The notes below the pieces were generated by a model, which saw only the letters and a program-made list of their open reading frames with translations, was not told the origin of the DNA and did no database searches. Source: Desulfobacter hydrogenophilus (GTDB taxonomy: Bacteria > Desulfobacterota > Desulfobacteria > Desulfobacterales > Desulfobacteraceae). Taken from it: a stretch of DNA of 64,000 bases. Location: NCBI RefSeq assembly GCF_004319545.1, contig NZ_CP036313.1, forward strand, positions 693,501-757,500, written 5' to 3'. This document shows, piece by piece, positions 3,966 to 20,799 of this stretch. Numbering within the stretch: position 1 is the stretch's first letter; every line of letters starts with the position of its first letter. The position numbers and the translations under genes are program-made.

Positions 3966-5642
3966 ATGTCATCCTCTTTTTCATTTTTTTCATTGCCTGG
4001 AAACAGCACCTGGACTCAAGGCCATAAAAACTTACGAAAAACAACCGGGCAATTGATCGCAGACCGCAAGTCCCTGGACCGGGTATTCATCCGTCCCGAA
4101 GATGAGAACAGCAAAAAGACCCTGGTTAAATATATGGAGCAGATCCTGTTCGGACTGCACGATTTCCTTAACCGAAATGTGGGCGTCACCGACGAAATCA
4201 GTCTTACTGAACTGGCTAAAAATTACATGGATGTCGAGATCAGCGATCATCCCCAGAAAAATCTGGGCCAGGTTATTGAAGATATCATCAAAGACATTGC
4301 CCCTAAAGCGGTGAATGTGGCATCGCCTTACTTCATTGGTCACATGACCTCTGCCCTGCCCTTTTTCATGGTGCATCTTAAAGCCATTACCGCAGCCTTG
4401 AACCAGAATGTCATTAAAATGGAAACCTCCAAGGTGCTCGCTGTCATTGAAAGGCAGGTGCTGGCCAAAATTCACCGCCTGATTTTCAAACAAAGCCATG
4501 ACTTCTACCAGGCGCATGTCCAAAATACCCGTACGGCTCTGGGCGCATTTACATCTGGTGGCACCACGGCCAACATGACAGCCATGTGGGTGGCCAGAAA
4601 TCGCCTGTTCCCGCCTAAAGATGATTTTTCAAGCATTGAAGAAGACGGCCTGTTCAAGGCCATGCGTGTCCATAACACGGACCGGGTGGTGATCCTTGTC
4701 TCCCGGCGGGGGCACTACTCTTTGAGAAAAGCAAGCGGTATTCTGGGCTTGGGCAATAAAAACATCATTATCATAGATGTTAAACCGGATCACACCATTG
4801 ATACAGACAAACTTAAACAGATTATTCAGGACCTGAAGCAGGAGGGGCGTACAAAAATTGCTGCAATCGTGGGTATTGCCGGGGCCACGGAGACAGGGAC
4901 CATTGATCCATTGCAAGAGATGGCCGATATCTGTGAACAGGAGCAGATTCATTTTCACGTGGATGCCGCATGGGGTGGGCCCATATTGTTATCCCAAACC
5001 TATGCCCACCTGCTTTCAGGCATTGAACGGGCAGATTCGGTCACCATTGACGGCCACAAACAATTTTACATGCCCATGGGAACAGGCATGGTTTATTTTA
5101 AAAACGCCCTTGCCCTTGACGCCATTGCCTACCATGCCCGGTACGTCAACCGAAAAGGCTCTGTGGATTTAGGCATAAAAACCCTTGAAGGCTCCAGGGA
5201 GGCCGCCTGCCTGATATTGGATGCATCCTTAAAAATCATGGGCGCCAAAGGGTATGCCCTGATGATTGATCACGGTATTGAAACGGCCAAGGCATTCGCC
5301 GAAAAAATAGACGCTCGGCCGGAATTTGAACTTGTGACTCCCCCTGTACTCAATATCCTGACCTACCGACTGGTCCCCATGGTCTTCCGGCAAAAACTGA
5401 AAACGGCCCGGGGGCAGACGCGTAAACACTTAAACCAGGAGCTTGACGAGATTAATATTCGCATCCAGCGCATCCAGCGAGAAGCTGGCAAAAGTTTTGT
5501 CTCCAGAACCCGACTCAAACTTGTGCCGGAAGATGATTTCATGGTAGTGGTACTTCGAAGCGTTATCATGAACCCCTATACCACCGAAGCCATTCTGGAT
5601 GACATCCTGGATGAACAGGAACAAATTTATCATCAACTTTAA
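3966..5642 (+). CDS. PLP-dependent decarboxylase, PanP-like (aspartate 1-decarboxylase candidate)
   Basis: A 558-residue group II pyridoxal-phosphate decarboxylase. Substrate contacts are implied by FTSGGTTANMTAMWVARN, the cofactor pocket by HVDAAWGGP, and the Schiff-base lysine by TIDGHKQFYMPMGTG, near residue 365. The length and the N-terminal region (YFIGHMTSALPFFM) resemble the family annotated as PLP-dependent aspartate 1-decarboxylase, a replacement of PanD for beta-alanine and pantothenate synthesis. Glutamate decarboxylase is the alternative. AAGGAAAG lies about 11 bp before ATG 3966. The first ~30 residues are low-complexity and the true start could be slightly inside. No pan genes are adjacent. 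Confidence 0.8.
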   Translation: MSSSFSFFSLPGNSTWTQGHKNLRKTTGQLIADRKSLDRVFIRPEDENSKKTLVKYMEQILFGLHDFLNRNVGVTDEISLTELAKNYMDVEISDHPQKNLGQVIEDIIKDIAPKAVNVASPYFIGHMTSALPFFMVHLKAITAALNQNVIKMETSKVLAVIERQVLAKIHRLIFKQSHDFYQAHVQNTRTALGAFTSGGTTANMTAMWVARNRLFPPKDDFSSIEEDGLFKAMRVHNTDRVVILVSRRGHYSLRKASGILGLGNKNIIIIDVKPDHTIDTDKLKQIIQDLKQEGRTKIAAIVGIAGATETGTIDPLQEMADICEQEQIHFHVDAAWGGPILLSQTYAHLLSGIERADSVTIDGHKQFYMPMGTGMVYFKNALALDAIAYHARYVNRKGSVDLGIKTLEGSREAACLILDASLKIMGAKGYALMIDHGIETAKAFAEKIDARPEFELVTPPVLNILTYRLVPMVFRQKLKTARGQTRKHLNQELDEINIRIQRIQREAGKSFVSRTRLKLVPEDDFMVVVLRSVIMNPYTTEAILDDILDEQEQIYHQL

Positions 5643-5733
5643 TCAGGGCCGGCCAGGCAGCACCTGGGCCCATGGAATAAATTTACAAACGGGTATAAAT
5701 ATGTTTGTCAGCCTGATTACTTCAATATCCGAA

Positions 5734-5857
5734 TTACCATCGGTCATAAAGCGTTTTTAAACCCATGGCCATGTAGTTGAGTTTGCCTTCATAGTGGGTT
5801 CCGAGAATGGACTGGGGGCAGCCTGAAACCGTGTGTGCTGATGTTTATTTTTTTCAT
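5734..5857 (-). pseudogene. Flavin-reductase-like gene remnant
   Basis: On the minus strand a strong AAAGGAGG site precedes ATG 5857, followed by a short start region. A frame change then gives GCPQSILGTHYEGKLNYMAMG, which resembles the start of flavin reductase-like proteins, and the frame stops at TAA 5734. Only about 40 codons remain. The call rests on a short match. Confidence 0.35.
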
Positions 5858-7045: not shown

Positions 7046-9241
7046 TTACTTTTTCTTCTTACTTTTCTTCACCACCATCCTGTGTGTCATTTTCAGCCTC
7101 TTTTCCGCATTTTTGATCAGGTGTTCAAAAGAACTGTGCGCATCTTCATCCTGTTGTGCCTGCAGTTGGACATAACTACCGTCACTTTGCATTTCCCAGC
7201 AATTGTGCCTGTCATTCAGCTGGATATCAATCATTTCCCGCAATAAGGCCTGCAGGCGTGGAGATTCGACAGGCGTGCAGATCTCAACCCGACTCTCAAG
7301 GTTTCGTTTCATCAGGTCTGCCGAGGATATAAAGTATTCTTCCTTACCACCATTGCGAAAATAAAAAATTCTTGAATGCTCCAGAAACCGACCGACAATG
7401 GAAATAACTCGAACATTTTCAGACAGTCCTGGAATGCCTGGCCGCAGCCGACAGGTATCACGGACAATGAGATCAACGTGAACACCGGCCTGTGAGGCTT
7501 TGTACAATGCCCTTGTAATATCTTTATCTTCAAGGGCATTTGTTTTTAATTGGATTAGTCCTTCCTGCCCTTCAGCCTGCAACCTGCACTCCCGGGCAAT
7601 CTTCTCCAGTAATTTTTTTTTCAAAATATTTGGGCAGGGTAGAAGCTTCTTGTATTTACGGGTGCCCGTATATCCGGTCGTCAGATAATTAAATAGCTCT
7701 GTGAGGTCGGAACCGATGACTGAATCACAGGTAAAAAGACCAAGGTCGCTGTATCCCCGGGCAGTACCCGCATGATAGTTGCCGGTTCCTATATGTGCGT
7801 AGCGATGCAAGCCGTCAAAATCCTTGCGTACCACAAAAATAACTTTTGAGTGGGTCTTCAAATCCACAACCCCGTAGGTCACATGAATCCCCACCTCTTC
7901 CAACGATCTGGCCCAGCGGATGTTGGCAGACTCATCAAAACGCGCTTTCAGCTCTACAACCACGGCGACCTGCTTACCATTCTGGGCTGCATCAATCAGG
8001 TACTGCATGACTCTGGATCGCTTGGCTGTCCGGTAAAGCGTCATTTTAATGCCCATAACTTTGGGGTCCAGACTGGCCTCCTTTATAAACCGTTCCACGG
8101 AGGTATCAAACGATTCGTATGGATGCTGCAGGAGAATGGAACCTTTTTCCTTTATGACATGGAAGATATTAGGATCCTCTCCAAGCAATTGCGGATTATC
8201 AACGGGTTGATGAAGCGGAAAGTGCAAGTCCTGACGGTCAAGTTCGGCAATCTGCATCAGGTGCCTGTTAGCCATGATTCCCTCAACTTCAAAAAGGTCC
8301 TCTTCTGCATCAATGTTGAGTTGTGCAGCCAACATACCTCGTAGAGACAGGCTCATATTCGTGTTCACCTCAAGCCGAACGATCTCAGCAAATTTTCTGT
8401 CGCGGAGGGCGGATTCGATCATAGATAAGAGATCATTCGCCTGCTCCTGATCTCGTTCAGTAATGGCATTCCTGATCACTCGGAAAAAATCGCATGATTC
8501 AATCACTATACCTGGGAAAAGCAAGTCAAGGTTGTTGGCGATAACATCCTCTATTGGTACATATAAATCTTCTTGGCCAATCTTTATAAATCGCGGAGTA
8601 AGCCCGGAGTCCACCGGAACCTTAATTCTGTTGAGATACGCGTGTTCCGTATCAGGATAGCTTACCTTGACCAGAAGGTTCAAGGATAGGTTGGAAATAA
8701 AAGGAAACGGATGTGCCGGATCCATTCCCTGGGGCGTTAAGAGTGGATATACATTATCGAAAAAAAAATTGTTGGCAAATGTCTTCTGCTCTTTTGTCAA
8801 TTGGTCGTAGCCGATAAGAACAATGCCCACGTCAGCAAGCAGTTTCTTCAACTCCACTTCCAACATTTGGTTCTGTTTTAAAATGTCCTGAACAGGAATA
8901 TGACAATCGTCGATCTGCTCTTGGGGTGTCCGCCCGTCCACACTTAATTTTTTGACCCCGGCCCCTACCAGGTGTTTGAGCCCACCGATACGTTTCATGA
9001 AAAACTCATCAAGATTCGAGCCAACGACTGATAGAAAGAAGACCCGTTCCAGAAGGGGGTTACGTGAATCCTGCCCTTCATGGAGGACCCGACGGTTGAA
9101 TTCAAGCCAGGTCAACTCCCTGTTTAGAAACCATTCCGAAGATTTCAGGTCAAACTCCGGGGAAATTTGTTGTTCCACCTGGGTCGGCTCACTTTCTATG
9201 ACATTTTTTTGCTCATCATTTTTCTGCTCATCAAGGGACAT
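7046..9241 (-). CDS. ppk1: Polyphosphate kinase 1
   Basis: Makes polyphosphate from ATP reversibly. The 731-residue protein has all PPK1 blocks: the N-terminal SSEWFLNRELTWLEFNRRVL, FLSVVGSNLDEFFMKR, the head domain, and the phospholipase-D-like catalytic domains. The catalytic histidine region is LKTHSKVIFVVR, followed by YAHIGTGNYHAGTARGYSD, then RFLEHSRIFYF and SSADLMKRNLESRVE. ATG 9241 with GGAG 8 bp upstream is preferred over the TTG four codons earlier. It ends in a lysine run (KKSKKKK). It is the first gene of a polyphosphate-themed neighbourhood on the same strand, but 265 bp separate it from the CYTH gene, so it is probably transcribed separately. Confidence 0.95.
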   Translation of the reverse strand: MSLDEQKNDEQKNVIESEPTQVEQQISPEFDLKSSEWFLNRELTWLEFNRRVLHEGQDSRNPLLERVFFLSVVGSNLDEFFMKRIGGLKHLVGAGVKKLSVDGRTPQEQIDDCHIPVQDILKQNQMLEVELKKLLADVGIVLIGYDQLTKEQKTFANNFFFDNVYPLLTPQGMDPAHPFPFISNLSLNLLVKVSYPDTEHAYLNRIKVPVDSGLTPRFIKIGQEDLYVPIEDVIANNLDLLFPGIVIESCDFFRVIRNAITERDQEQANDLLSMIESALRDRKFAEIVRLEVNTNMSLSLRGMLAAQLNIDAEEDLFEVEGIMANRHLMQIAELDRQDLHFPLHQPVDNPQLLGEDPNIFHVIKEKGSILLQHPYESFDTSVERFIKEASLDPKVMGIKMTLYRTAKRSRVMQYLIDAAQNGKQVAVVVELKARFDESANIRWARSLEEVGIHVTYGVVDLKTHSKVIFVVRKDFDGLHRYAHIGTGNYHAGTARGYSDLGLFTCDSVIGSDLTELFNYLTTGYTGTRKYKKLLPCPNILKKKLLEKIARECRLQAEGQEGLIQLKTNALEDKDITRALYKASQAGVHVDLIVRDTCRLRPGIPGLSENVRVISIVGRFLEHSRIFYFRNGGKEEYFISSADLMKRNLESRVEICTPVESPRLQALLREMIDIQLNDRHNCWEMQSDGSYVQLQAQQDEDAHSSFEHLIKNAEKRLKMTHRMVVKKSKKKK

Positions 9242-9518
9242 GATGCACTCCAACGTTACTGGGATAAAGTAATTTTTTAATCATACCACGCAGCTACTGA
9301 ACGTGATCAAATAACCTGAGGCAAATATAAACTAAGAATATAAGAATAGTGTTAGCGGCTTACCCCAATATATGAGCGTTCATCCCTCACAATTGTGGAA
9401 AGCCTTTAGAGACAGGAGGTCTAAAATTTTAAAAATAACGGATTGAGTACACAGGGCCACAGTCGGTGCGTTTCCCAGATCTTTTTGAATAGGTCAATCT
9501 TTTGATCTGTATCGTTTT

Positions 9519-9980
9519 TTAAGGAATACCGTTTTCGGCAAGACTTTTATTTTTATACCGGCCATCTTCAGTCACATCCAGCCCAAACCATGGGGGCGGA
9601 ACAAAGGTTTCGGCCTGGGCTTGGTCACCGAATTCCACCTCGCATAAGAAAAGACCTGCAAGGCCACCTGAAAATTCATCAATTTCAGCGACAAGGCCGT
9701 TTTCAAGGGGGGCTTGGGACCGTTGTTTTTCCACCTGCCGCCCCTGGGTCAAAGGCCACAGATAATGAAAATTGGTTTCATCAATCCTGATTTCCGCTTC
9801 ATTCCGTACAAGTCCCTGGCCCCGTTTAAAGGTCATGAAAAATGCATCGCCTTTCTGGCGAAGTCTGATCTCAACAGAATCCAGGGATTTGGAAATATAG
9901 CCCTGGCGGATACTGGTGGTGGACTGCAAAGCAATTTCCGGCATCTTTGTGAGCAGGAACTTTCGTTCTATTTCTTTCAT
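9519..9980 (-). CDS. CYTH (triphosphate tunnel metalloenzyme) domain protein
   Basis: A 153-residue stand-alone CYTH domain. The signature EIERKFLL (ExExK) is at residues 3-10, followed by IRQGYIS, VEIRLRQKG, FFMTFKRGQG, NEAEIRID, LVAEIDEFSG and LCEVEFGD, which alternate as the eight tunnel strands. Members hydrolyse or bind triphosphates, including tripolyphosphate. Its start overlaps the ParA stop (TAATG), so it is translationally coupled to ParA and CHAD. With CHAD and PPK nearby, a polyphosphate or tripolyphosphate substrate is likely but unproven. Confidence 0.88.
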   Translation of the reverse strand: MKEIERKFLLTKMPEIALQSTTSIRQGYISKSLDSVEIRLRQKGDAFFMTFKRGQGLVRNEAEIRIDETNFHYLWPLTQGRQVEKQRSQAPLENGLVAEIDEFSGGLAGLFLCEVEFGDQAQAETFVPPPWFGLDVTEDGRYKNKSLAENGIP

Positions 9981-10729
9981 TAAACCCTATCCCCTTGATT
10001 CTGAACTTCCTGCCACAATTGTGAGTAGGCCGCCACAGGCCCTTCTTTTCCGGCATAATACAGGGCCGGAGCCCTATGAACGCCCATGCGCTCAATATGT
10101 GTGGAAAAAGGTATCCAGGTGTTCATCACCTGTTCATTGCCGGCCCGGATCTCTTCCATGGTGTCAAGGTGCAGGGATTTACTCTGCTGGACCATGGAAA
10201 AAAACGGGAAAATCTTGGATGACTTGTAACCCTGTTTTTTAAAAAAATCATACAGTTGTTCAAGGGTTCTTTGGGACAATGTGGTGGGGATCACCGGTAC
10301 CACAATACGGTCAGCCACCTTGAAGACATTTTCCGAAAGCAGGGAGATATTTGGGGGACAGTCCAAAAGAACAATGTCATATTCACCATCAACCGGTTTC
10401 AACGCCTTGTTCAGCCGAGAGCGGCTCTTTTTCATCCGGGACAAAAAAATATCAAAATCCCTGAAACTCATGTTAGCCGGCAAAAGGTCCAGACCTTGAA
10501 AATCAGTTTCTCTGATGGCATTTGCAAATTTTTTTGTACCTTCAAAAAAGGTATTATTTTTTAGTTTTTCGGACGGCTTCACACGAAAATAAAATCCTGA
10601 GGCACCCTGGGGATCAAGGTCGCACAAAAGAGTCCGGTTGCCGCTTAGCGCACTGGCATATGCCAAATTAACCGAAGCTGCGGTTTTTCCCACACCGCCT
10701 TTGTTGGAATAACAAGCTATAAGTTTCAC
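9980..10729 (-). CDS. ParA/MinD-type ATPase of the polyphosphate operon
   Basis: A 249-residue deviant-Walker ATPase. KGGVGKT is at residues 10-16 with the signature lysine K10, the A' motif is DLDPQGASG, and Walker B is IVLLDCPPNIS. There is no N-terminal DNA-binding domain, as in small ParA, Soj, McdA and MipZ-like proteins that position cargo on the nucleoid. It starts with GTG 10729 behind AAGGAG, 14 bp after the CHAD gene, and its stop overlaps the CYTH start. No ParB or parS is visible; the small RHH protein two genes upstream is the obvious partner candidate, as in type Ib partition systems. Its role on polyphosphate granules is inferred from context. Confidence 0.88.
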   Translation of the reverse strand: MKLIACYSNKGGVGKTAASVNLAYASALSGNRTLLCDLDPQGASGFYFRVKPSEKLKNNTFFEGTKKFANAIRETDFQGLDLLPANMSFRDFDIFLSRMKKSRSRLNKALKPVDGEYDIVLLDCPPNISLLSENVFKVADRIVVPVIPTTLSQRTLEQLYDFFKKQGYKSSKIFPFFSMVQQSKSLHLDTMEEIRAGNEQVMNTWIPFSTHIERMGVHRAPALYYAGKEGPVAAYSQLWQEVQNQGDRV

Positions 10730-10743
10730 GAAATAATATCTCC

Positions 10744-12288
10744 TTATGAATCAGCCTGGGTGTTGGTTTTTTTAAAGCCTGTGTTCTTCAATTCAAACAG
10801 GGCGTTAAACGCATCCTGTGTATCGGGGCTGTAAAATTGGGACAGGTTATCAATAATCATCCTGCGTTCTGCCAGCTGTTTGCGATAAAGCATGGCTGTC
10901 AACGCCCCGATGCTTTCGGCCAGAGCTTTGGCATTGGGGCCGGTGCCCGGGTAACGCTCCAGGCACTGGGCCAGGGTGGCCTGCTGGACAGACTGGTCAT
11001 TGAAACTTCCCAGATGCTCCTGCAACCCTTTAAGGGTTTTAAGCAGGCGTTTTACTTGTTTGACGTCAAATAAAGGCTGGGCAGATTCCATCAGGTACCG
11101 CAATTTTTTGCACTGGATACGTAGTTCATGAATGGTATCATCCGGGGTCTTATCCGTTATACTCTCGGCAAGTTTGCACACCTTTTTATATCGTTTCAAA
11201 ACCAGATCTGCGGCAAAAACCTTGGACGGAGCATCGGCCTTGGGGCCTTTGGGCAGGCCTTTGGGATTTTCAAATAATTTCTGAATGAATTTTATCTGTT
11301 TTTTGTAAGCCTTGGATTTAAGCATGGCTTCAACCTTTCCAAAGGCCTCATCCCGATCCTGTTGCAACAAATCAAAAAGGACCCCAAGGCCAGGATGGGC
11401 CTGGGGGGGAACCAAGGCAAAATAATCGTCCTTGGATAATAGGTAAACATCCCGGTCCCGCATCAGGTTGGTATCCTGCATAATATCCCTGAAATCCTGC
11501 TTCAACTGATTAAGGGTTTCAGAGGCCACCACGCCTTTAAACAGGGTAAGCACGGATCGCACTTTGCGCAGACTGACCCGCCACTGATGGAGAAACTCGG
11601 TGTCCAGATCATCAATAAGCCCGGGTTCGTTGTGGCGTGTGACCTGTAAAAATGTCTGGACAATGCGACAAAGGCTTGTCCTGGCAGGGGCCTTTTCAGA
11701 CAAACGAATAACCGGCTTGGATGTATAATCCGAAATTTTCAGTTTAAGTACATCTGCAGGAAGGCCCGGGGGCTCCATTTTTTTCAAAATGTCACAAATC
11801 AGCGCATGGCTGCCCATATAACCTCGCATGGGAAGGGTCCGCAGCCAGGACCAGGTATTTTCCCCGCGGCTCAAAAAAACCGATGCAACGCGGCAGCAGG
11901 TTTTTTGTTCGTCATCCAGAAGGGATAATGTATCCCGGATGATGCTCACCTGACCTGCCGGTGTAAACGCCCGCAAAGGCGATTGATCCAAAAGCAGATC
12001 CCTGACAGGGCCCTGGGGAAGCTCCCGGGGAAATTGCCATTCGAATACCGGCGCAGTCTGTGTCATTAAATCACCAGACCAGCCGATCCTGACCAGATCG
12101 GATTGAGTCTGAATTAAAAGGGCATCCGACTTGTAAACCGCAGCATCAAAGGTATCCAGAACAGTCCCCTCTTCGGGCTCACATGCATTGCCCATAAGGG
12201 TCATATTTGAACTCTTGAGTGCGGCATTTATCTTTTTGACATTAATGCCGGCCGACAGCGTAAATGTTTGCGAAGGAGGCAAATTCAT
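10744..12288 (-). CDS. CHAD-domain protein with degenerate CYTH-like N-terminus
   Basis: A 514-residue protein. The C-terminal ~300 residues form a CHAD domain: two helical halves with conserved histidine/arginine faces, FLHQWRVSLRKVRSVL at 232-247 and IHELRIQCKKLRYLM at 386-400. This is the basic polyphosphate-binding surface known for the family, which localises to polyphosphate granules. Residues 1-200 resemble a decayed CYTH fold, lacking the ExExK signature. Its ATG overlaps the TGA of the RHH gene, and ParA follows after 14 bp. It would be the natural adaptor linking granules to the ParA ATPase. Confidence 0.88.
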   Translation of the reverse strand: MNLPPSQTFTLSAGINVKKINAALKSSNMTLMGNACEPEEGTVLDTFDAAVYKSDALLIQTQSDLVRIGWSGDLMTQTAPVFEWQFPRELPQGPVRDLLLDQSPLRAFTPAGQVSIIRDTLSLLDDEQKTCCRVASVFLSRGENTWSWLRTLPMRGYMGSHALICDILKKMEPPGLPADVLKLKISDYTSKPVIRLSEKAPARTSLCRIVQTFLQVTRHNEPGLIDDLDTEFLHQWRVSLRKVRSVLTLFKGVVASETLNQLKQDFRDIMQDTNLMRDRDVYLLSKDDYFALVPPQAHPGLGVLFDLLQQDRDEAFGKVEAMLKSKAYKKQIKFIQKLFENPKGLPKGPKADAPSKVFAADLVLKRYKKVCKLAESITDKTPDDTIHELRIQCKKLRYLMESAQPLFDVKQVKRLLKTLKGLQEHLGSFNDQSVQQATLAQCLERYPGTGPNAKALAESIGALTAMLYRKQLAERRMIIDNLSQFYSPDTQDAFNALFELKNTGFKKTNTQADS

Positions 12289-12446
12289 TTTTCTGATTTT
12301 CCCTTGTTCTTTTTAATATATTCATGGATCAGATTTTCAATAATGGCCTGAACGCTGGTCTCTTTTTCAATGGCCAGGATTTTAAGCGCCTTGAGCACTT
12401 TTTTCTCCAACCTTAGGGAAGTATTCACCTTTTTAATTTTTACCAT
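12285..12446 (-). CDS. Small ribbon-helix-helix protein, putative ParA partner or autoregulator
   Basis: A 53-residue protein from ATG 12446. A strand KKVNTSLRLEKKVLKALKIL is followed by AIEKETSVQAIIENLIHEYI, the strand-helix-helix pattern of the MetJ/Arc family, and a lysine-rich tail. It is the first gene of the operon, overlapping the CHAD start by 4 bp (ATGA). In type Ib partition loci and many plasmid systems such proteins are the ParA partner and also repress their own promoter. The palindrome AATGACGTCATT in the 55-bp divergent promoter region is a plausible target. The fold is clear; the partner role is inferred. Confidence 0.75.
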   Translation of the reverse strand: MVKIKKVNTSLRLEKKVLKALKILAIEKETSVQAIIENLIHEYIKKNKGKSEK

Positions 12447-12482
12447 ATTAGATCCTTGTTAATCTTTGTTTCATGCCTTGAT

Positions 12483-12529
12483 ATAATGACGTCATTAAAT
12501 TATGATGTCAACTATTATGGATTTAATGA
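12483..12529. promoter_or_regulatory. Candidate RHH operator in the divergent promoter region
   Basis: The perfect 12-bp palindrome AATGACGTCATT (12485-12496) is followed by an imperfect half ATGATGTCA (12502-12510) and a third TTAATGAC (12522-12529). It sits between the RHH operon and the Ppx/GppA gene. A 13-bp identical copy ATAATGACGTCAT lies inside Ppx/GppA at 12904. Operator function is inferred. Confidence 0.5.
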
Positions 12530-13488
12530 CAAAATACGCAGCCATCGACATTGGTTCAAATGCCGTTCGCCTGCTTTTAGCCATGGTGTCGGAAGAAAAG
12601 TTTGAACTTCGAGTAAAAAAAATTTCCTGGATGCGCATGCCCATCCGACTGGGTGAAGATGCCTTTTTACAGGGCACGATCTCGGATGAACGGGCCTCCA
12701 AACTGACAAAAACCATGGCTGGCTTTGCAAAACTTATTGATGCGTACCAGCCTGTGGCGATCAAAGCGTGTGCCACTTCGGCCATGAGGACTGCCCAGAA
12801 CGGCCGGCAGGTATGCCACAGAATCAGGGAACAGACTGGTATCGACATTGAAATCATCAACGGTGGGCAGGAAGCCCGGTATCTTTTCCAAAACCGCCAC
12901 AAAATAATGACGTCATCGGAAAAATCAGCTTTGTTTGTGGATGTGGGTGGCGGGAGCACTGAAATTACGTTGTTTTGTAACGGCAGGGTCCAGGCCAGTC
13001 GTTCCTTTAACCTAGGCACCATCCGCCCGCTCAACAACCGGGCCCGGCAGCAGGACTGGGATTGTATGAAATCTTGGTTGAAAAAAAATACCCAGGGACA
13101 TGAGCCTGTGGAGGCCATTGGCAGCGGTGGAAACATTAACAAGCTGTTTAAGCTGGCCAAGGGCCGTCCCGGGACATGGGTGAGCCGGAAAAAAATAAAA
13201 AAAATCCGGAATGAACTAGCTGATTATGCGTTGGAAGAACGGATGCGCCGCTTTAATTTAAAACCTGACCGGGCAGACGTTATTATCCCGGGAGCACGAA
13301 TCTATATTAAAGCCATGGCCTGGGGCCGGTGTGAAAAAATCCATGTCCCCATGCAGGGACTTGCCGACGGCATAATACGGGTCCTACACGCCCAGAGGAT
13401 GCAGGCGCAGTCCGAGGATATCCCGAAGAGAACGGACCGTTCCGATGATACTATGCCCCTTGCTGAGCATGACACATTCGACTTTTAG
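12526..13488 (+). CDS. Ppx/GppA-type exopolyphosphatase
   Basis: Cleaves terminal phosphate from polyphosphate or (p)ppGpp. ASKHA-fold motifs are present: YAAIDIGSNAVRLLLA at the N-terminus, ACATSAMRTAQNG, FVDVGGGSTEITLF, and AIGSGGNINKL. About 320 residues, matching short Ppx2/GppA forms without an HD domain. ATG 12526 is preferred because MTKYAAIDIGS is the usual beginning; upstream ATGs at 12502, 12505 and 12517 are in frame and cannot be excluded. It is divergent from the RHH-CHAD-ParA-CYTH operon across the palindrome, which suggests shared control. The last 30 residues are charged and poorly conserved. Confidence 0.88.
   Translation: MTKYAAIDIGSNAVRLLLAMVSEEKFELRVKKISWMRMPIRLGEDAFLQGTISDERASKLTKTMAGFAKLIDAYQPVAIKACATSAMRTAQNGRQVCHRIREQTGIDIEIINGGQEARYLFQNRHKIMTSSEKSALFVDVGGGSTEITLFCNGRVQASRSFNLGTIRPLNNRARQQDWDCMKSWLKKNTQGHEPVEAIGSGGNINKLFKLAKGRPGTWVSRKKIKKIRNELADYALEERMRRFNLKPDRADVIIPGARIYIKAMAWGRCEKIHVPMQGLADGIIRVLHAQRMQAQSEDIPKRTDRSDDTMPLAEHDTFDF
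12904..12916. promoter_or_regulatory. Second copy of the ATAATGACGTCAT palindrome
   Basis: Identical over 13 bp to 12483-12495, here inside the Ppx/GppA coding region about 400 bp downstream. It could be an auxiliary operator or a nucleation site for the RHH protein. Chance is possible but unlikely for 13 bp in 0.5 kb. Confidence 0.4.
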
Positions 13489-13667
13489 GACCGCAGATTA
13501 AATAAGTTGGACAGAAACAACTCCGATTCTTCTATAGTCCTGCCGTTGGCAACACAACAAATGATATCTTAATTATATTTCAATAGGTTATTATTCATAA
13601 CATGGGTTTAAGCATTTAGACGATACAAAAATTGACTTCAACCATTTAAAAAAGGAGAATTGAACGT

Positions 13668-14055
13668 ATGAAAACCCATAACCTGAGGTTCCCGCATCGG
13701 CGACAACAGGGAACTCAAACACGCACTGGAATCTTACTGGCGGGGCGCAGGAAACAAACGGATCACCACAGGATCGGTATTTCCGTACAGCCCGGGGGCA
13801 GTCCACAGACGATGGAAAAGACAACCAGATTTCAGCCGGAGAAATGACCAAGTGGTTTGACACCAATTACCACTACATTGTCCCGGAATTTGATCCATCC
13901 ACCGGTTTTTGCCTGGATGCACAATCTCTGCTGGACCAGTTACAGGAGGCTCAAAAGGTAGGCGTAAGGCCCAAACAGGTTATTATAGGCCCCGTAACCT
14001 ATCTTTTTTGGGGCAAGGCAGAAAATGTTGACAAAATAAACCTGCTGAATAAAAT
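13668..14055 (+). pseudogene. metE: 5' remnant of cobalamin-independent methionine synthase
   Basis: AAGGAG precedes ATG 13668. The start reads MKTHNL; after a one-base shift the frame gives RIGDNRELKHALESYWRGAG, the MetE N-terminus. A large internal deletion follows. From 13844 a third segment encodes MTKWFDTNYHYIVPEF and VRPKQVIIGPVTYLFWGKAE, both strongly MetE-like. Similarity ends at about 14050 in the integrase remnant. Frameshifts, deletion and truncation exclude function. Confidence 0.8.
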
Positions 14056-14511
14056 GGTTTTGTCTCTGATGCCTTTCAGCGTTTCTGCATCGGGTGTGTC
14101 TAATATTTTTCTGACTTCATGGGGTGTCATCACTTTGGCTTCCACCCGGTCGGAATTGACCGGCATGCGACGAACGCCCTGGGCCACATTGATTTTGACG
14201 ATCTGTTTATCTATCAAATGATTGAACAGCGAAGATATCGCGCTTAACCGATTGTTAATCGTCCTGGGACTGTGACCCAAATTTTGAAGATATTTTTTAA
14301 AGGCAATCACATGACCATGTTCAACATCCCGCAATTGCTCCGGGGCGCTTACGCCAATAAAAGACAAAAAGGAATGAATGGCTTTGTCGTATGTCTCAAT
14401 GGAATTGTCAGAATTAAAATTGGCTTTCCATAAAAGTTCTTCCGGAATTTCTTTGATCGCCTTGAGGAGAGAAATTTTATTTTTCGGACTGGGTATCAGA
14501 TCGTGATTCAT
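14048..14511 (-). pseudogene. Tyrosine recombinase 5' remnant
   Basis: ATG 14511 begins a frame with the N-terminal core-binding domain of XerC/D-type integrases: SIETYDKAIHSFLSFIG, HVIAFKKYLQNLG and SPRTINNRLSAISSLFNHLI. It then has the first residues of the catalytic domain, MTPHEVRKILDTPD and GIRDKTIL. There it joins the inverted metE remnant and ends within 20 codons of unrelated sequence. The catalytic R-H-R-Y residues are all missing. Confidence 0.8.
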
Positions 14512-14606: not shown

Positions 14607-14831
14607 TATGATCCATCAAGAACCCGGCCAACTTTTTTTTATGAAATATTATTATATAGGGACGATTTTGAAATGGGAGAGGTGTGAGAACCTATCCCTA
14701 AAGTATTGAGTGAAAAGGCAGTCATGTTTTTATGAGGCACATATGGCGAAAGCGGCATAAAATAAAAATATGGCGTTTTAAACATAATTTGATATTATGC
14801 CGTTATAGACATATTTTATTTGGAGGAAGGG

Positions 14832-15104
14832 ATGCAGCAGATAATGGTCTCCCCCAGGGATCTTGGGGTAACGCTTAAAGAATTGAGGAAACAAAAGGGG
14901 ATGACCCAGACAGCCTTGGGTAAACGGGTGGGGCTTGACCAGAAACGGGTCTCCCTGATGGAGAGCGGCAATCCCAATATCCGAGTGGCCAGCCTGTTCA
15001 GACTGCTTTCCGCTCTGGACGTGGGCATGGCCCTTGAGCCCAAGGCCATTGACGGTACGACTCCAGTCCAAGGGAACCAGGAAGAGAATAAGGATGAATG
15101 GTGA
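14832..15104 (+). CDS. hipB: HipB-type antitoxin, XRE helix-turn-helix
   Basis: A 90-residue DNA-binding antitoxin. The XRE domain reads LGVTLKELRKQKGMTQTALG, RVGLDQKRVSLMESG, NIRVASLFRLLSALDVGMAL. ATG 14832 with GGAGGAAGG directly upstream is preferred over the in-frame TTG at 14820. It overlaps hipA by 7 bp. In the family HipB neutralises HipA and represses the operon. It sits in the accessory island between broken genes. Confidence 0.88.
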   Translation: MQQIMVSPRDLGVTLKELRKQKGMTQTALGKRVGLDQKRVSLMESGNPNIRVASLFRLLSALDVGMALEPKAIDGTTPVQGNQEENKDEW

Positions 15105-16459
15105 TGGGAAAGGCAAAAAATCTCAGCGTCCTGATGAACGGTGCGCCTGTGGGGTGGCTGGCCCGCAGTGCCAAAGGGATTGTCTCTTTTGGTTACGACG
15201 AGAATTGGCTTTCAGACCGCAACAGAAGACCCTTGTCCCTGTCCCTGTCCCTGCCTCTTACAGCCCAGGTTTATTCTGGTGATCGGGTTGAAAATTATTT
15301 TGATAACCTGCTGCCGGATAACATGACATTGCGTAACAGGCTGCAGGCCAAGGTCGGGGCTTCGTCCACCCGGGCCTTTGACCTGCTTTTCCACATCGGC
15401 AGGGATTGTGTAGGGGCCGTGCAGCTTGTGCCCGAAGGGGAAACGCCAAATGTCAAAATGGTAACCGCAGATCGGGTAGATGAAGCGCAGATAGAGACAA
15501 TTCTCAAGTCCTATGCCGCCATGCCCCTGGGGGTGGACATTGATGCCGATTTCAGGCTTTCCGTTGCCGGGGCCCAGGAAAAAACCGCATTCCTCAGGAT
15601 GCAGAACGGCTGGTACCGCCCTTCCGGGGCCACGCCTACCAGCCATATTTTCAAGCTGCCCATGGGGCGACTGGGTCAAACCGGCTTAGATTTGTCAGGC
15701 AGTGTGGAAAACGAATGGCTCTGCCAGAAGCTTTTGGGGGCCTTTGGCATGTCTGCGGCTGACACCCGGATGGCAAACTTCGGTAGCCAGAAGGTGCTGG
15801 TGGTGAAGCGGTTTGACCGGCGCTGGTCCTCTGGCAGCACCTGGCTGATCCGGCTGCCCCAGGAAGATATCTGCCAAGCCACGGGAACCCCTTCGGCCCT
15901 GAAATATGAGGCGGACGGGGGACCAGACATGACCGCGGTTATGGATCTGCTTCTGGGCTCCGACAAGGCTCATGAGGACCGAACCACCTTTATGACATCT
16001 CAATTGCTTTTTTGGATGTTGGGGGCCATTGATGGGCACGCCAAAAATTTCAGCATCTTTCTTCGGCCCGGCAGCCGGTTTCACCTGACCCCCCTTTACG
16101 ATGTCATCTCAATCTATCCTTTGGCCAGGGCTGGCCAGATTTCCATGCACAAGGTGAAGATGGCTATGGCCGTGTCAGGGAAAAACCGCCATTACAGATG
16201 GAACAGCATAACCAGAAGACATTGGTTGGATACGGCAAAAAAATGCAGGTACCCGGAAGATGAGATGAAGCAGATTATTGAAAAATGCTGTGATATGGCA
16301 CAAGGATGCATAGATCAGGTCAGTGACGCCATGCCCCCGGGGTTTTCTGAGCAGATTTCAGCAGCAATTTTTTCTGGAATACACCAGGCAAGGGAACGGT
16401 TGATTAACAATAAAAAGGGTTCGCGACTTCCCGGTAATGAATGTAACCATCGATTGTAA
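15098..16459 (+). CDS. hipA: HipA-type serine/threonine kinase toxin
   Basis: A 453-residue HipA-family kinase; relatives phosphorylate glutamyl-tRNA synthetase or other targets and cause persistence. It has the N-terminal domain MNGAPVGWLARSAKGIVSFGYD, RVENYFDNLLPDN, then FRLSVAGAQEKTAFL, HIFKLPMG, NEWLCQKLLGAFGM, VVKRFDRRW, the catalytic loop AIDGHAKNFSIFL and metal site LTPLYDVIS. All kinase motifs appear intact. A CCCTGT-type repeat at about 15232-15255 encodes an LSLSLSL stretch. The gene overlaps hipB. The C-terminal 25 residues read into DNA next to the Tn3 remnant and may be altered. Confidence 0.9.
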   Translation: MVMGKAKNLSVLMNGAPVGWLARSAKGIVSFGYDENWLSDRNRRPLSLSLSLPLTAQVYSGDRVENYFDNLLPDNMTLRNRLQAKVGASSTRAFDLLFHIGRDCVGAVQLVPEGETPNVKMVTADRVDEAQIETILKSYAAMPLGVDIDADFRLSVAGAQEKTAFLRMQNGWYRPSGATPTSHIFKLPMGRLGQTGLDLSGSVENEWLCQKLLGAFGMSAADTRMANFGSQKVLVVKRFDRRWSSGSTWLIRLPQEDICQATGTPSALKYEADGGPDMTAVMDLLLGSDKAHEDRTTFMTSQLLFWMLGAIDGHAKNFSIFLRPGSRFHLTPLYDVISIYPLARAGQISMHKVKMAMAVSGKNRHYRWNSITRRHWLDTAKKCRYPEDEMKQIIEKCCDMAQGCIDQVSDAMPPGFSEQISAAIFSGIHQARERLINNKKGSRLPGNECNHRL

Positions 16460-16822: not shown

Positions 16823-16849
16823 GTCTTGCAAAAAAATCTGAGTTTTATT

Positions 16850-19329
16850 GCTTAACCCGGTTTTCTGTTCCATTACTGCCCAAACCCCGTATGGTTCAGA
16901 CAATCCCCAAACCACACAATTCCATTATGATGCCCTGGGCCGCCCGGTTCAGGCAATCCGTCCGTTAGGGGATTATACCGAAACCGAGTATGACGCCGTG
17001 GGCAACCGGCGTTTTGCCCGAAGATACGATCGCAACGGCACACTGCTGGAAGAAAGCGAATATGAATATGATGCCCGCGGTCTATTAACCCGAACCACAG
17101 ATCATATGGGATCTGTCACGCAAATCACATATGATGACGCCGGCAGAAAAATTGAACAGACAAATCCTGAAGGCCAGTCGGTTCAGTATGATTATGATGA
17201 AGTGGGCAATGTTGTCCAGACCATTGATGCCATGGGAGGTCTCTACCGATTTTATTATGATTTGAACAACCGGAAAGTACGTTCCGTCAATCCTCTGGGA
17301 GAGACCACAGCCTTTGTTTACGATCCCAACGGAAACCAGACGACTGTCATCTTGCCTGATCAAAGCACGGCCCATTATTTCTACGATGCCGTAAACCGGA
17401 AAATCGGGGAAGAAGACAGGCTGGGTTTCCTTCAACTTTTTGAATATGATGCATCCGGCAATATGACCACCCATACGGATGCCAAAGGCTACGCGTCCAC
17501 ATATGAATACGACGCAGCCAACCGGCCGGTCAAAATCATTGATGCCGCCGGCCATGAAATCACCGTCACCTATGACGAAGCCGGCCGAAAACTCCAGCTT
17601 ACCGACGCCCGGGGTGCTGTCACAGACTTTCTATATGATGTCCAAGGGAACCTGATCCGCAAAGCATGACCCAAATTTCCTATCCGTCAGGCAGAACCGT
17701 TGATAAATACTATGACGAAACCAACTTCCTTGCCACGGTAGACTACCTGGGTAACCAGGCCGCTGCATTCACACCGGATGAAAACGGCCGGATCATTTTT
17801 GCCGGTTATGGCAATGATACCGATCTGACCCTGACCTACGACACCATAGGCAGGGAAGAGAGCAGAACGTTTGCCACACCGGGCTCTGATCCGCTTTTCA
17901 CTGTGTCGGACATGACATATGACGGCCGGGGCAGTCTTACTGCGCAGACCGAGACTTTTGATGCGGTAACAGCAGTTGACGCATTCACCTATGATAACCA
18001 GGACCGCCTGACCGCCCGCACCCGGAACCTCACCCCGGCCGGGGAATGGGACTATGACCTTGTGGGCAACTGGGAATATACCAACCAGAACGGCACGGCT
18101 GAAACCAGGACAGTCACGGGTGACAACGAATACACCAATGTCGGCGGTTTACTCCCGGTCCATGACGGCCGGGGCAACATGACTTTTGACGGAGACCTGG
18201 ATTATGAATACGACTGGGCCAACCGGCTGATCAGGGTGGCTTCCGGTGCCACCGTGCTGGGTGAATACACCTATGATGCCCTGAACCGGCGGGTGACCAA
18301 AGCCGTGAACACCGTCAGCACCACCTTCGTTTATGATGACGATGCCGTGGTTGAGGCGTATGAAAATACCGTTCTGCGCCGGACCTATGTCTACGGGAAT
18401 GCTGTGGACGATCCGATTCTGGTTGAAACCGGCAGCCAGGTTTACTATTATATCGCCGATATCCGCGGCAGCATCCGAGCTGTCACAGACAGTTCCGGTG
18501 CCCTGAAGGAATACTATGAGTACGGCCCCTTCGGGCTGATGGCGATCTTTGACAATCAGGGGCAGGATATTACGACCACCGGCTCCACTATCGGCAATCC
18601 CTACGGTATACCGGCAGGCGGTGAGATAGCGAGTCCGGGCTCTGGCATTACCGGAACCGGATGTACTCTGCTGAATTGGGGCGGTTCCTGCAGCGTGATC
18701 CTGCCGGGTATGTGGATGGGGTGAATCTGTATGCCTATGTCTTAAATAACCCACTGAGGTACACTGATCCTGACGGGTTGATGGCACGGGAGGCTTATGA
18801 TTGGACTATGGATACAGCCTTGCCGGTTGTTTCTGATGTCTCTGCTGGTTTTGGCGATACAATCACATTTGGTGCTACAAAAACAGTAAGGGACATGTGG
18901 AATGAAACCTTCTGGGATGGCCAGGATAGTGTGAATTACGATTCAGGAGCATATAAACTTGGTACCGGAAAAACAACCTTAGACGCTGTAACAAATTTAG
19001 GAGCTCCTGATGTTCGTTTTGGACTTGATTCGCCGATAGGTGGCATGACAACCACATTGCCTTTTGGTAGTGGAGGGAATCCAACGACTTCTCGTACTAC
19101 ACCATCTATCAATACACCGCTTGCTCCAGGCGTAAACATGAAAATTGATGGAAAGACAAATGTCGATACTAAAAACATTGGTCTCAGAACTAGTATATCA
19201 ACTCCTTTGGGAGGCGGTAAATTAAACACGGATATCTCATCTATGCAGATGAATTTTAATTTAAGAGGTCCTCAAATGAATTTTCCTTTAGGTTATGGAG
19301 CAAATGCGTATATAGGTATCCAGTGGTAA
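16850..19329 (+). pseudogene. Rhs/YD-repeat protein gene, 5'-truncated and frameshifted
   Basis: More than a dozen YD repeats (ITYDDAGRKIEQTNPEG, YEYDAANRPVKIID and similar) run through three frames. The first frame begins without a natural start directly after the Tn3 remnant. A frameshift at about 17665 splits LIRKA from TQISYPSGR. A missing base at about 18602 and an in-frame TGA at about 18622 disrupt the core YTGRRxD. Beyond that, MYSAELGRFLQRDPAGYVDG and NPLRYTDPDGL mark the RHS core end. A unique 180-residue tip follows, rich in G/T/N with no catalytic motif I recognise. Intact relatives are large wall- or surface-associated delivery proteins. This copy cannot make a full product, though the last frame (18661-19329) is open. 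Confidence 0.85.
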
Positions 19330-19797: not shown

Positions 19798-20799
19798 TTA
19801 CAGTGATTTTAGGAATGCCATAAATTCCGGATTATTGGACCAATTATCGATAGTATCCGAAGCTGATGCCGGAACCTCGCATTGAGCGAGTGCTTTAGCC
19901 TTCATTTCAAGATCTATCTCTGCATAGATGTGAGTTGTATCGAGGGACACATGTCCGAGCCAGGCGCGGATCGTATTAATGTCGACACCAGAACGTAGTA
20001 GATGCACTGCAGTTGTGTGGCGGATGGTGTGAGTGCTGATCCGCTTAGTAGACAAAATAGGCAACTTTTGACTCGCAGTTTGGGCAGATCGTTTGACAAC
20101 AGCACAGATTCCGAATCGTGTGATTGGCTGTTTTTGACGGTTTAAAAAAACTGGTTCATCCGCCCGGCGTCCGACAACGAGAGCAGCTAATTTACCGGCC
20201 GTGTGTGGCCATAAAGGACATCGTCGTACCTTGCCTCCTTTTCCCAGGAGTATGACCGATGAAGGAGAACCGAGGTCCAGATCCGCGATAGTAAGGTTTG
20301 CCGCTTCGCTTGCCCGGGCTCCTGAGTTATACAAAAAAAGCAACAAGGCATGATCCCGCAGACCTTGTGGGGTGTTGCGATTGGGAGCATTAAGCAATGC
20401 GTCCATCTCGCGCTTGTCGAGATAAGTCATGGATGGTTTTGAAATTTTTTTGAAGGGTATTGAACGGACCAGGGTAAGCCAGGTGATGTGCTCTGGGCTA
20501 CGTTCGCCAATAAAACGTGCCAAGGCATGAATCGCAGCAAGACGCTGATTTCGGGTAGAGACGGAACATCCGCGTTGTTTTTCCAATCGAAGCAGGAATT
20601 GGCGGACAATATCTGCAGAGATATCCTCGATCGACAGCTAATCTACCGACTTGTTCAGGTTTTTGGCCGTGAATGGAAGAAATAAAACCAATGTATCACG
20701 ATAGCTTACTTGAGTGTTATGCGCGAGGTTGCGTTCACCGACCAGATATTCCAGAAGGAAACGACGGATCCATGGCCCCAAAACTTTATTTTTATTCAT
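19798..20799 (-). pseudogene. RIT recombinase C with premature amber codon
   Basis: From ATG 20799, overlapping the RitB stop by 4 bp, the frame reads MNKNKVLGPWIRRFLLEYLV. It has one in-frame TAG at 20640-20638, in a VD-stop-LSIEDI context where relatives have an arginine, then continues for 265 codons. Motifs of a tyrosine recombinase are present after the stop: GARASEAANL, LGKGGKVRRCPLW, HTIRHTTAVHLLRSG, WLGHVSLDTTHIYAEI. The catalytic R-H-R-H-Y set therefore lies intact beyond the stop. Confidence 0.8.

Follow-up and report, generated by a model that had tools for sequence, protein, structure and literature searches.

What does a ParA-family ATPase do among the genes of polyphosphate (polyP) metabolism? 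The question is raised by a 64,000-nucleotide stretch of the Desulfobacter hydrogenophilus genome (contig NZ_CP036313.1, positions 693,501 to 757,500; hereafter the window), in which the genes for a ribbon-helix-helix (RHH) protein, a CHAD protein, a ParA-family ATPase and a CYTH enzyme form a tight minus-strand operon that runs from 12446 down to 9519. The core of this operon is the CHAD and ParA pair. It is very likely that the CHAD-linked ParA is functionally tied to CHAD and to polyP, and on the strength of gene order and residue conservation the pair probably positions or partitions polyP granules. The four genes, in window coordinates, are:

12285..12446, minus strand: RHH protein, 53 residues; Pfam RHH_4 E 5.6e-6, RHH_1 E 5e-5; predicted autoregulator
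10744..12288, minus strand: CHAD protein, 514 residues; PF05235 E 2.6e-58
9980..10729, minus strand: ParA-family ATPase, 249 residues, GTG start; AAA_31 E 3e-38; member of the CHAD-linked branch
9519..9980, minus strand: CYTH / triphosphate tunnel (TTM) enzyme, 153 residues; PF01928 E 2e-4; NeuTTM (2fbl) E 6e-45

The RHH and CHAD genes overlap by ATGA, 14 bp separate CHAD from ParA, and ParA and CYTH overlap by TAATG. Coordinates and Pfam matches thus bear out the operon of the original prediction, along with the divergent Ppx/GppA gene and the nearby ppk1 that it had named.

Conservation of the CHAD-ParA pair

When genome contigs were scanned with the window ParA, CHAD lay directly upstream of ParA in 32 of 34 loci; the two exceptions are a locus with CHAD elsewhere in the genome (L059) and one with a generic ParA of 31% identity (L065), and the CHAD frame of L049 is interrupted in the draft assembly. 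The conservation samples proper, meant to avoid picking close kin, are the Desulfobacterota and the class of Nitrosomonas europaea, and not the alphaproteobacteria as a group. ParA (E <= 1e-45) is present in 22 of 395 Desulfobacterota genomes, where CHAD is directly upstream in 19 of the 23 matches, window included; of the other four, L069 lies at the end of a contig, and L084, L085 and L086 are without CHAD. At the same threshold, 39 of 274 genomes of the N. europaea class carry ParA, with CHAD directly upstream in 31 of the 39 matches: 27 by CHAD profile, three by Pfam (over 38 regions) and N. europaea itself (L054). The three Pfam cases are diverged CHADs missed by the profile and spotted by eye (L175, L178, L185). 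Among the eight class loci without CHAD upstream, one has ppk1 in that place (L184) and seven have neither.

The two genes also occur together at the level of whole genomes. In the same draw, 90 of the 274 class genomes contain a CHAD match, namely 36 of the 39 with ParA (one of which, G610, holds a broken trace only) versus 54 of the 235 without it (Fisher 5e-17, or 6e-16 excluding G610; a hand count from two lists, uncorrected for kinship). Outside Desulfobacter the full four-gene order is found in eight loci (L036, L043, L050, L051, L053, L057, L064, L088), including a Paracoccus plasmid (L088) with all four genes in the order of the window. Because it recurs in these loci, and CHAD-ParA in many more, the order is not due to chance. 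Had the arrangement been confined to close relatives, the original prediction would have been undermined; the pairing recurs across phyla instead.

Two loci are atypical. In L184 (G610), ParA directly follows ppk1 without CHAD, and the genome's sole CHAD trace holds stop codons. In L112 (G393), ParA retains two neighbour families (ArgJ-like, major facilitator superfamily by eye) that flank CHAD-ParA in relatives, and CHAD is lost from both the locus and the genome.

The ParA branch

In a quick tree of 64 ParA rows (61 different), all 44 CHAD-linked rows fall on one branch of 46 rows with an SH-aLRT of 83; the tree is moderately supported and midpoint-rooted, some end branches are long and three of the linked rows are duplicates. 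Two unlinked rows (L059, L084) lie inside this branch, four more (L018, L085, L086, L089) come next outside it, and ordinary Soj-type ParAs are far off. The window ParA is 92% identical to that of D. vibrioformis. The Desulfobacter ParA groups with a genome of the same family (L014), Pontiellaceae and a Desulfobulbaceae record, then with alphaproteobacteria and others (55-71% identity); other Desulfobacterota ParAs are only 41-53% identical and do not group with it. This placement, across phyla and apart from other Desulfobacterota, suggests that the operon was transferred between phyla as one unit.

The predicted ParA model has the canonical ParA fold, and its closest folds by Z are ParA/Soj. 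The deviant Walker A motif KGGVGK with its signature lysine (K10-K15) and the LDCP motif (L122-P125) are invariant in 38 of 38 ParAs. One of the rows just outside the branch, from Marinobacter nauticus plasmid pMAQU02 (L089; ParA at 5001-5747), adjoins phbB and pyruvate kinase genes; the same plasmid carries a CHAD match some 6.6 kb from ParA.

The CHAD protein as a candidate granule adaptor

The CHAD protein has two domains, an N-terminal CYTH/TTM-like domain (about 5-184) that lacks ExExK and a C-terminal polyP-binding CHAD domain (about 188-501). According to the available text of PMC6537752, CHAD binds polyP chains, the polyP-contact residues of CtCHAD have been tested by mutation, and overexpression of CHAD in R. 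eutropha shifts granules to the poles. The equivalents of these contact residues (H253, R256, R260, R296, R418 and Y419) are invariant in 37 of 37 aligned CHADs, which fits the role of granule adaptor first proposed for this protein.

The CYTH enzyme and the polyP neighbourhood

The CYTH enzyme contains ExExK in the form EIERK (residues 3-7), and its PF01928 score of 21.7 bits is just below the cut-off of 23.2. The N. europaea locus (L054) reads CHAD-ParA-CYTH, and over 151 residues its CYTH protein has the same sequence as 2fbl (NE1496, NeuTTM); NeuTTM, a solved enzyme, therefore belongs to a CHAD-ParA-CYTH operon. It is described in the available text of PMC3440374 as a specific inorganic triphosphatase that hydrolyses tripolyphosphate in vitro. 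As a relative of NeuTTM with ExExK present, the window CYTH is consistent with the processing enzyme anticipated for it. CYTH is not a constant member, however, as its own profile finds it beside CHAD-ParA in only 2 of 38 class loci.

Two polyP genes accompany the operon in the window:

12502..13488, plus strand: Ppx/GppA phosphatase; PF02541 E 1.4e-34; divergent, start codon possibly a few codons further in
7046..9253, minus strand: polyphosphate kinase 1 (ppk1); PF02503/PF13090/PF17941, NCBIfam

Since ppk1 begins 265 bp downstream of the end of the CYTH gene, it need not share the operon transcript. Similar genes are found near the pair elsewhere: ppx; ppk1 (L034, L094, L096, L099, L101, L106, L107, L154, L158, L163, L165, L171, L176, L184); ppk2 (by Pfam in L103 and L111, by BLAST in L153, L154, L155, L163 and L165, with ppk2 directly after ParA in L155); and NUDIX and SixA-type phosphatases (Pfam in L064, L108). 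On one Paracoccus plasmid, CHAD-ParA sits behind pst-phoU-phoB. Most neighbour names rest on BLAST matches, and ppk1, ppk2 or ppx lies within the analysed stretch in 9 of 38 class regions, many being without.

The RHH protein as a predicted autoregulator

Of the 82 distinct CHAD-ParA loci that could be scored, 26 have an intact RHH gene (27 of 83 including a duplicate, L032 being the same as L122); the scoring left out 8 loci whose upstream sequence was short and 17 in which the profile found no CHAD, and the RHH profile could miss very diverged members. The exact palindrome TGACGTCA stands near the start in 25 of the 26 distinct intact-RHH loci, L053 having AGACGTCAT instead, and in 2 of the 56 loci without intact RHH. 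Both of the latter (L037 and L054) carry decayed rhh remnants while CHAD-ParA-CYTH persist. Eight control palindromes gave zero matches in the 83 loci. As 11 of the 26 intact-RHH loci are Desulfobacter-type, they are not independent, but loci with and without intact RHH both exist within Rhodobacterales. The palindrome of the window falls between the divergent genes:

12484..12497, no strand: predicted RHH operator, palindrome TAATGACGTCATTA, common to both divergent promoters; putative
12483..12511, minus strand: operon promoter-like site TTGACA-17-CATTAT, a consensus match only; the operator overlaps its -10
12478..12506, plus strand: ppx promoter-like site TTGATA-17-TATGAT, a consensus match only; the operator lies in its spacer

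Promoter-like consensus matches number 10 in the stretch against 6.4 expected. In 9 of 16 other RHH loci tried, the palindrome marks the end of the best sigma-70-like site, a figure without a shuffled control; seven do not fit, among them L040, where a palindrome copy elsewhere in the locus was taken.

The loci that were read have one or two copies of the operator word upstream of rhh, and the genome of the window has five exact ATGACGTCAT sites, two of them in this locus, with no array. This is the pattern of an autoregulator and not of a centromere. Because its presence tracks the promoter palindrome and it is absent from most CHAD-ParA loci, the RHH protein is most likely a local autoregulator at the operon promoter. 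Of the two roles envisaged in the original prediction, ParA partner or autoregulator, the second is thus favoured (25 of 26 with the palindrome versus 2 of 56), and a ParA partner is rejected as the default reading given the 56 of 82 loci without intact RHH. A wider RHH regulon was considered and set aside: of the three ATGACGTCAT sites elsewhere in the genome, the two that were read (L130, L131) fall within coding frames. The operator word occurs once more at 12907-12916, within ppx; other Desulfobacter loci do not have the exact word there, and this copy is taken as chance.

Other features of the window

No Rfam match reached the gathering score within 8900-13900. A defence system was rejected, the PADLOC result being a single weak match to the first 39 residues of ParA. 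A gene of the pyridoxal-dependent decarboxylase family (PF00282) occupies 3966-5642. By eye, a small helix-turn-helix-like frame overlaps a 453-residue HipA-like frame at 14820-16459 (a HipBA-type pair), a YD-repeat (Rhs-like) gene at 16848-19329 is apparently split over several frames, and tyrosine-recombinase-like frames lie on the minus strand at 13999-14511, probably a fragment, and at 19798-20586.

How might CHAD and ParA act together?

The pair would be a cargo-positioning system of the ParA/MinD type, with the polyP granule as its cargo. CHAD would coat the granule through its polyP-binding face, as its residues and the literature indicate, and another part of the protein, perhaps the inactive-looking TTM domain, would engage the ATP-bound ParA dimer. 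By analogy with the ParA family, the dimer would attach to the nucleoid or some other scaffold and thereby space the granules and distribute them to both daughter cells. The CYTH enzyme may clear tripolyphosphate left by polyP turnover, and RHH would repress the operon, and probably also ppx, from the palindrome in the shared promoter, where the association is observed and binding is predicted.

Several observations weigh against positioning. Basic residues of the Soj type contact DNA, and the Soj stretch that contains them (IPRN-V/I-R/K-L) is replaced in CHAD-linked ParAs, with D or E at position 211 in 32 of 39 and F or Y at position 208 in 34 of 39; the other basic residues are K184 (39/39), R/K214 (38/39) and R/K219 (38/39). 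The N-terminus of CHAD is not basic (a mean net charge of -0.6 across 20 residues; no K or R among the first 15 residues in 11 of 38), and it is by a basic N-terminus that known partners usually bind ParA according to the available text of PMC12204374. In R. eutropha, depletion of CHAD gave no apparent phenotype in the available text of PMC6537752. Furthermore, 7 of 38 class loci have neither CHAD nor ppk1 upstream (L160, L168 at a contig end, L170 and L180-L183), 3 of 23 Desulfobacterota matches lack CHAD, some ParA-bearing genomes have no CHAD anywhere (G393, G475, G621, G722), and no ParA-CHAD fusion was found among the frames scanned.

ParA could instead be a regulatory ATPase of polyP metabolism that binds CHAD or PPK1 and sets synthesis without positioning, as BcsQ does for cellulose synthesis and FleN for a regulator; this is unlikely, given that the closest folds are ParA/Soj and that the gene directly upstream in most loci encodes a granule-binding module and not an enzyme. 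Alternatively, CHAD-ParA might set granule number or nucleation through ATP-controlled condensate assembly. The binding of polyP chains by CHAD (PMC6537752, available text) would suit such a role, as would an N-domain without ExExK that could bind phosphate without cleaving it, yet nothing in the sequence calls for it and the idea is improbable. We know of no ParA that controls granule number or nucleation, which counts against it further.

The remaining alternatives involve plasmid-type partition. That RHH is a ParB-like partner anchoring ParA or the granule at a site on the chromosome, in the manner of type Ib partition, would agree with its adjoining ParA and with a predicted RHH site in the same locus, but intact RHH is missing from most of the distinct loci and decayed in L037 and L054, and the five exact sites form no array, the two outside ones that were read being intragenic; such a role is very doubtful. 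Accidental capture of a plasmid partition gene beside polyP genes is barely credible: some copies do reside on Paracoccus plasmids, but the pairing is conserved across phyla on a single ParA branch, and on the one Paracoccus plasmid opened the pair sits behind phosphate genes (pst-phoU-phoB). Positioning or partition of granules by CHAD-ParA is therefore the reading that we favour. A bolder version can be put forward only tentatively, at somewhat less than even confidence: a cross-phylum, horizontally moving, ATP-driven polyP-granule partition machine. Its cargo adaptor would join an inactive triphosphatase-like domain to CHAD, and in its ParA a new set of almost invariant basic residues would have replaced the usual DNA contacts of Soj, so that this ParA may travel on the nucleoid, or on the surface of the granule, by a mode that other ParA systems have not shown.

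Comparison with known systems

CHAD-ParA is a named two-gene candidate for polyP-granule placement. At 39 of 274 genomes in one class and 22 of 395 Desulfobacterota it is not rare, it is testable in culturable organisms, and it places NeuTTM and kin of the solved CtCHAD in one pathway. No proposal of ParA-driven polyP positioning was found in a non-exhaustive search of open PMC papers, bioRxiv excluded. In its available text, a 2025 review names AlgP, describes the Caulobacter proteins as unidentified and lists as unknown whether polyP positioning depends on ATP (PMC13052382). AlgP of Pseudomonas aeruginosa likewise acts in polyP-granule spacing; it is a histone-H1-like DNA-binding protein and not a ParA (PMC9239181, available text). 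Papers of 2019 and 2024 on Acidithiobacillus (PMC6416229, PMC10892726) record clusters of ppk, parA and CHAD; in their available text the folD-ppk-parA-CHAD cluster concerns one genus, and its ParA is described as a partition protein for plasmids or chromosomes, with no granule positioning.

Type Ib partition combines ParA, an RHH ParB and a centromere. Unlike it, the systems described here do not have RHH as a constant neighbour of ParA, and one or two upstream words, with the handful of exact sites genome-wide, take the place of a centromere array. McdAB, of the ParA/MinD family, positions carboxysomes by way of the cargo protein McdB, whereas here the cargo would be polyP and the corresponding protein CHAD, without a basic N-terminus; McdA was left out of the ParA tree. 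NeuTTM, the relative of the window CYTH, is treated as a lone enzyme without mention of CHAD in the available text of PMC3440374, and here it is an operon member. CtCHAD (6qv7/6qva) and other phosins share the CHAD domain and the same polyP residues, and the crystal numbering of CtCHAD (207-522) fits a two-domain protein like that of the window. The word ParA is absent from the main text of the CtCHAD paper (PMC6537752) as available; here, CHAD is paired with ParA.
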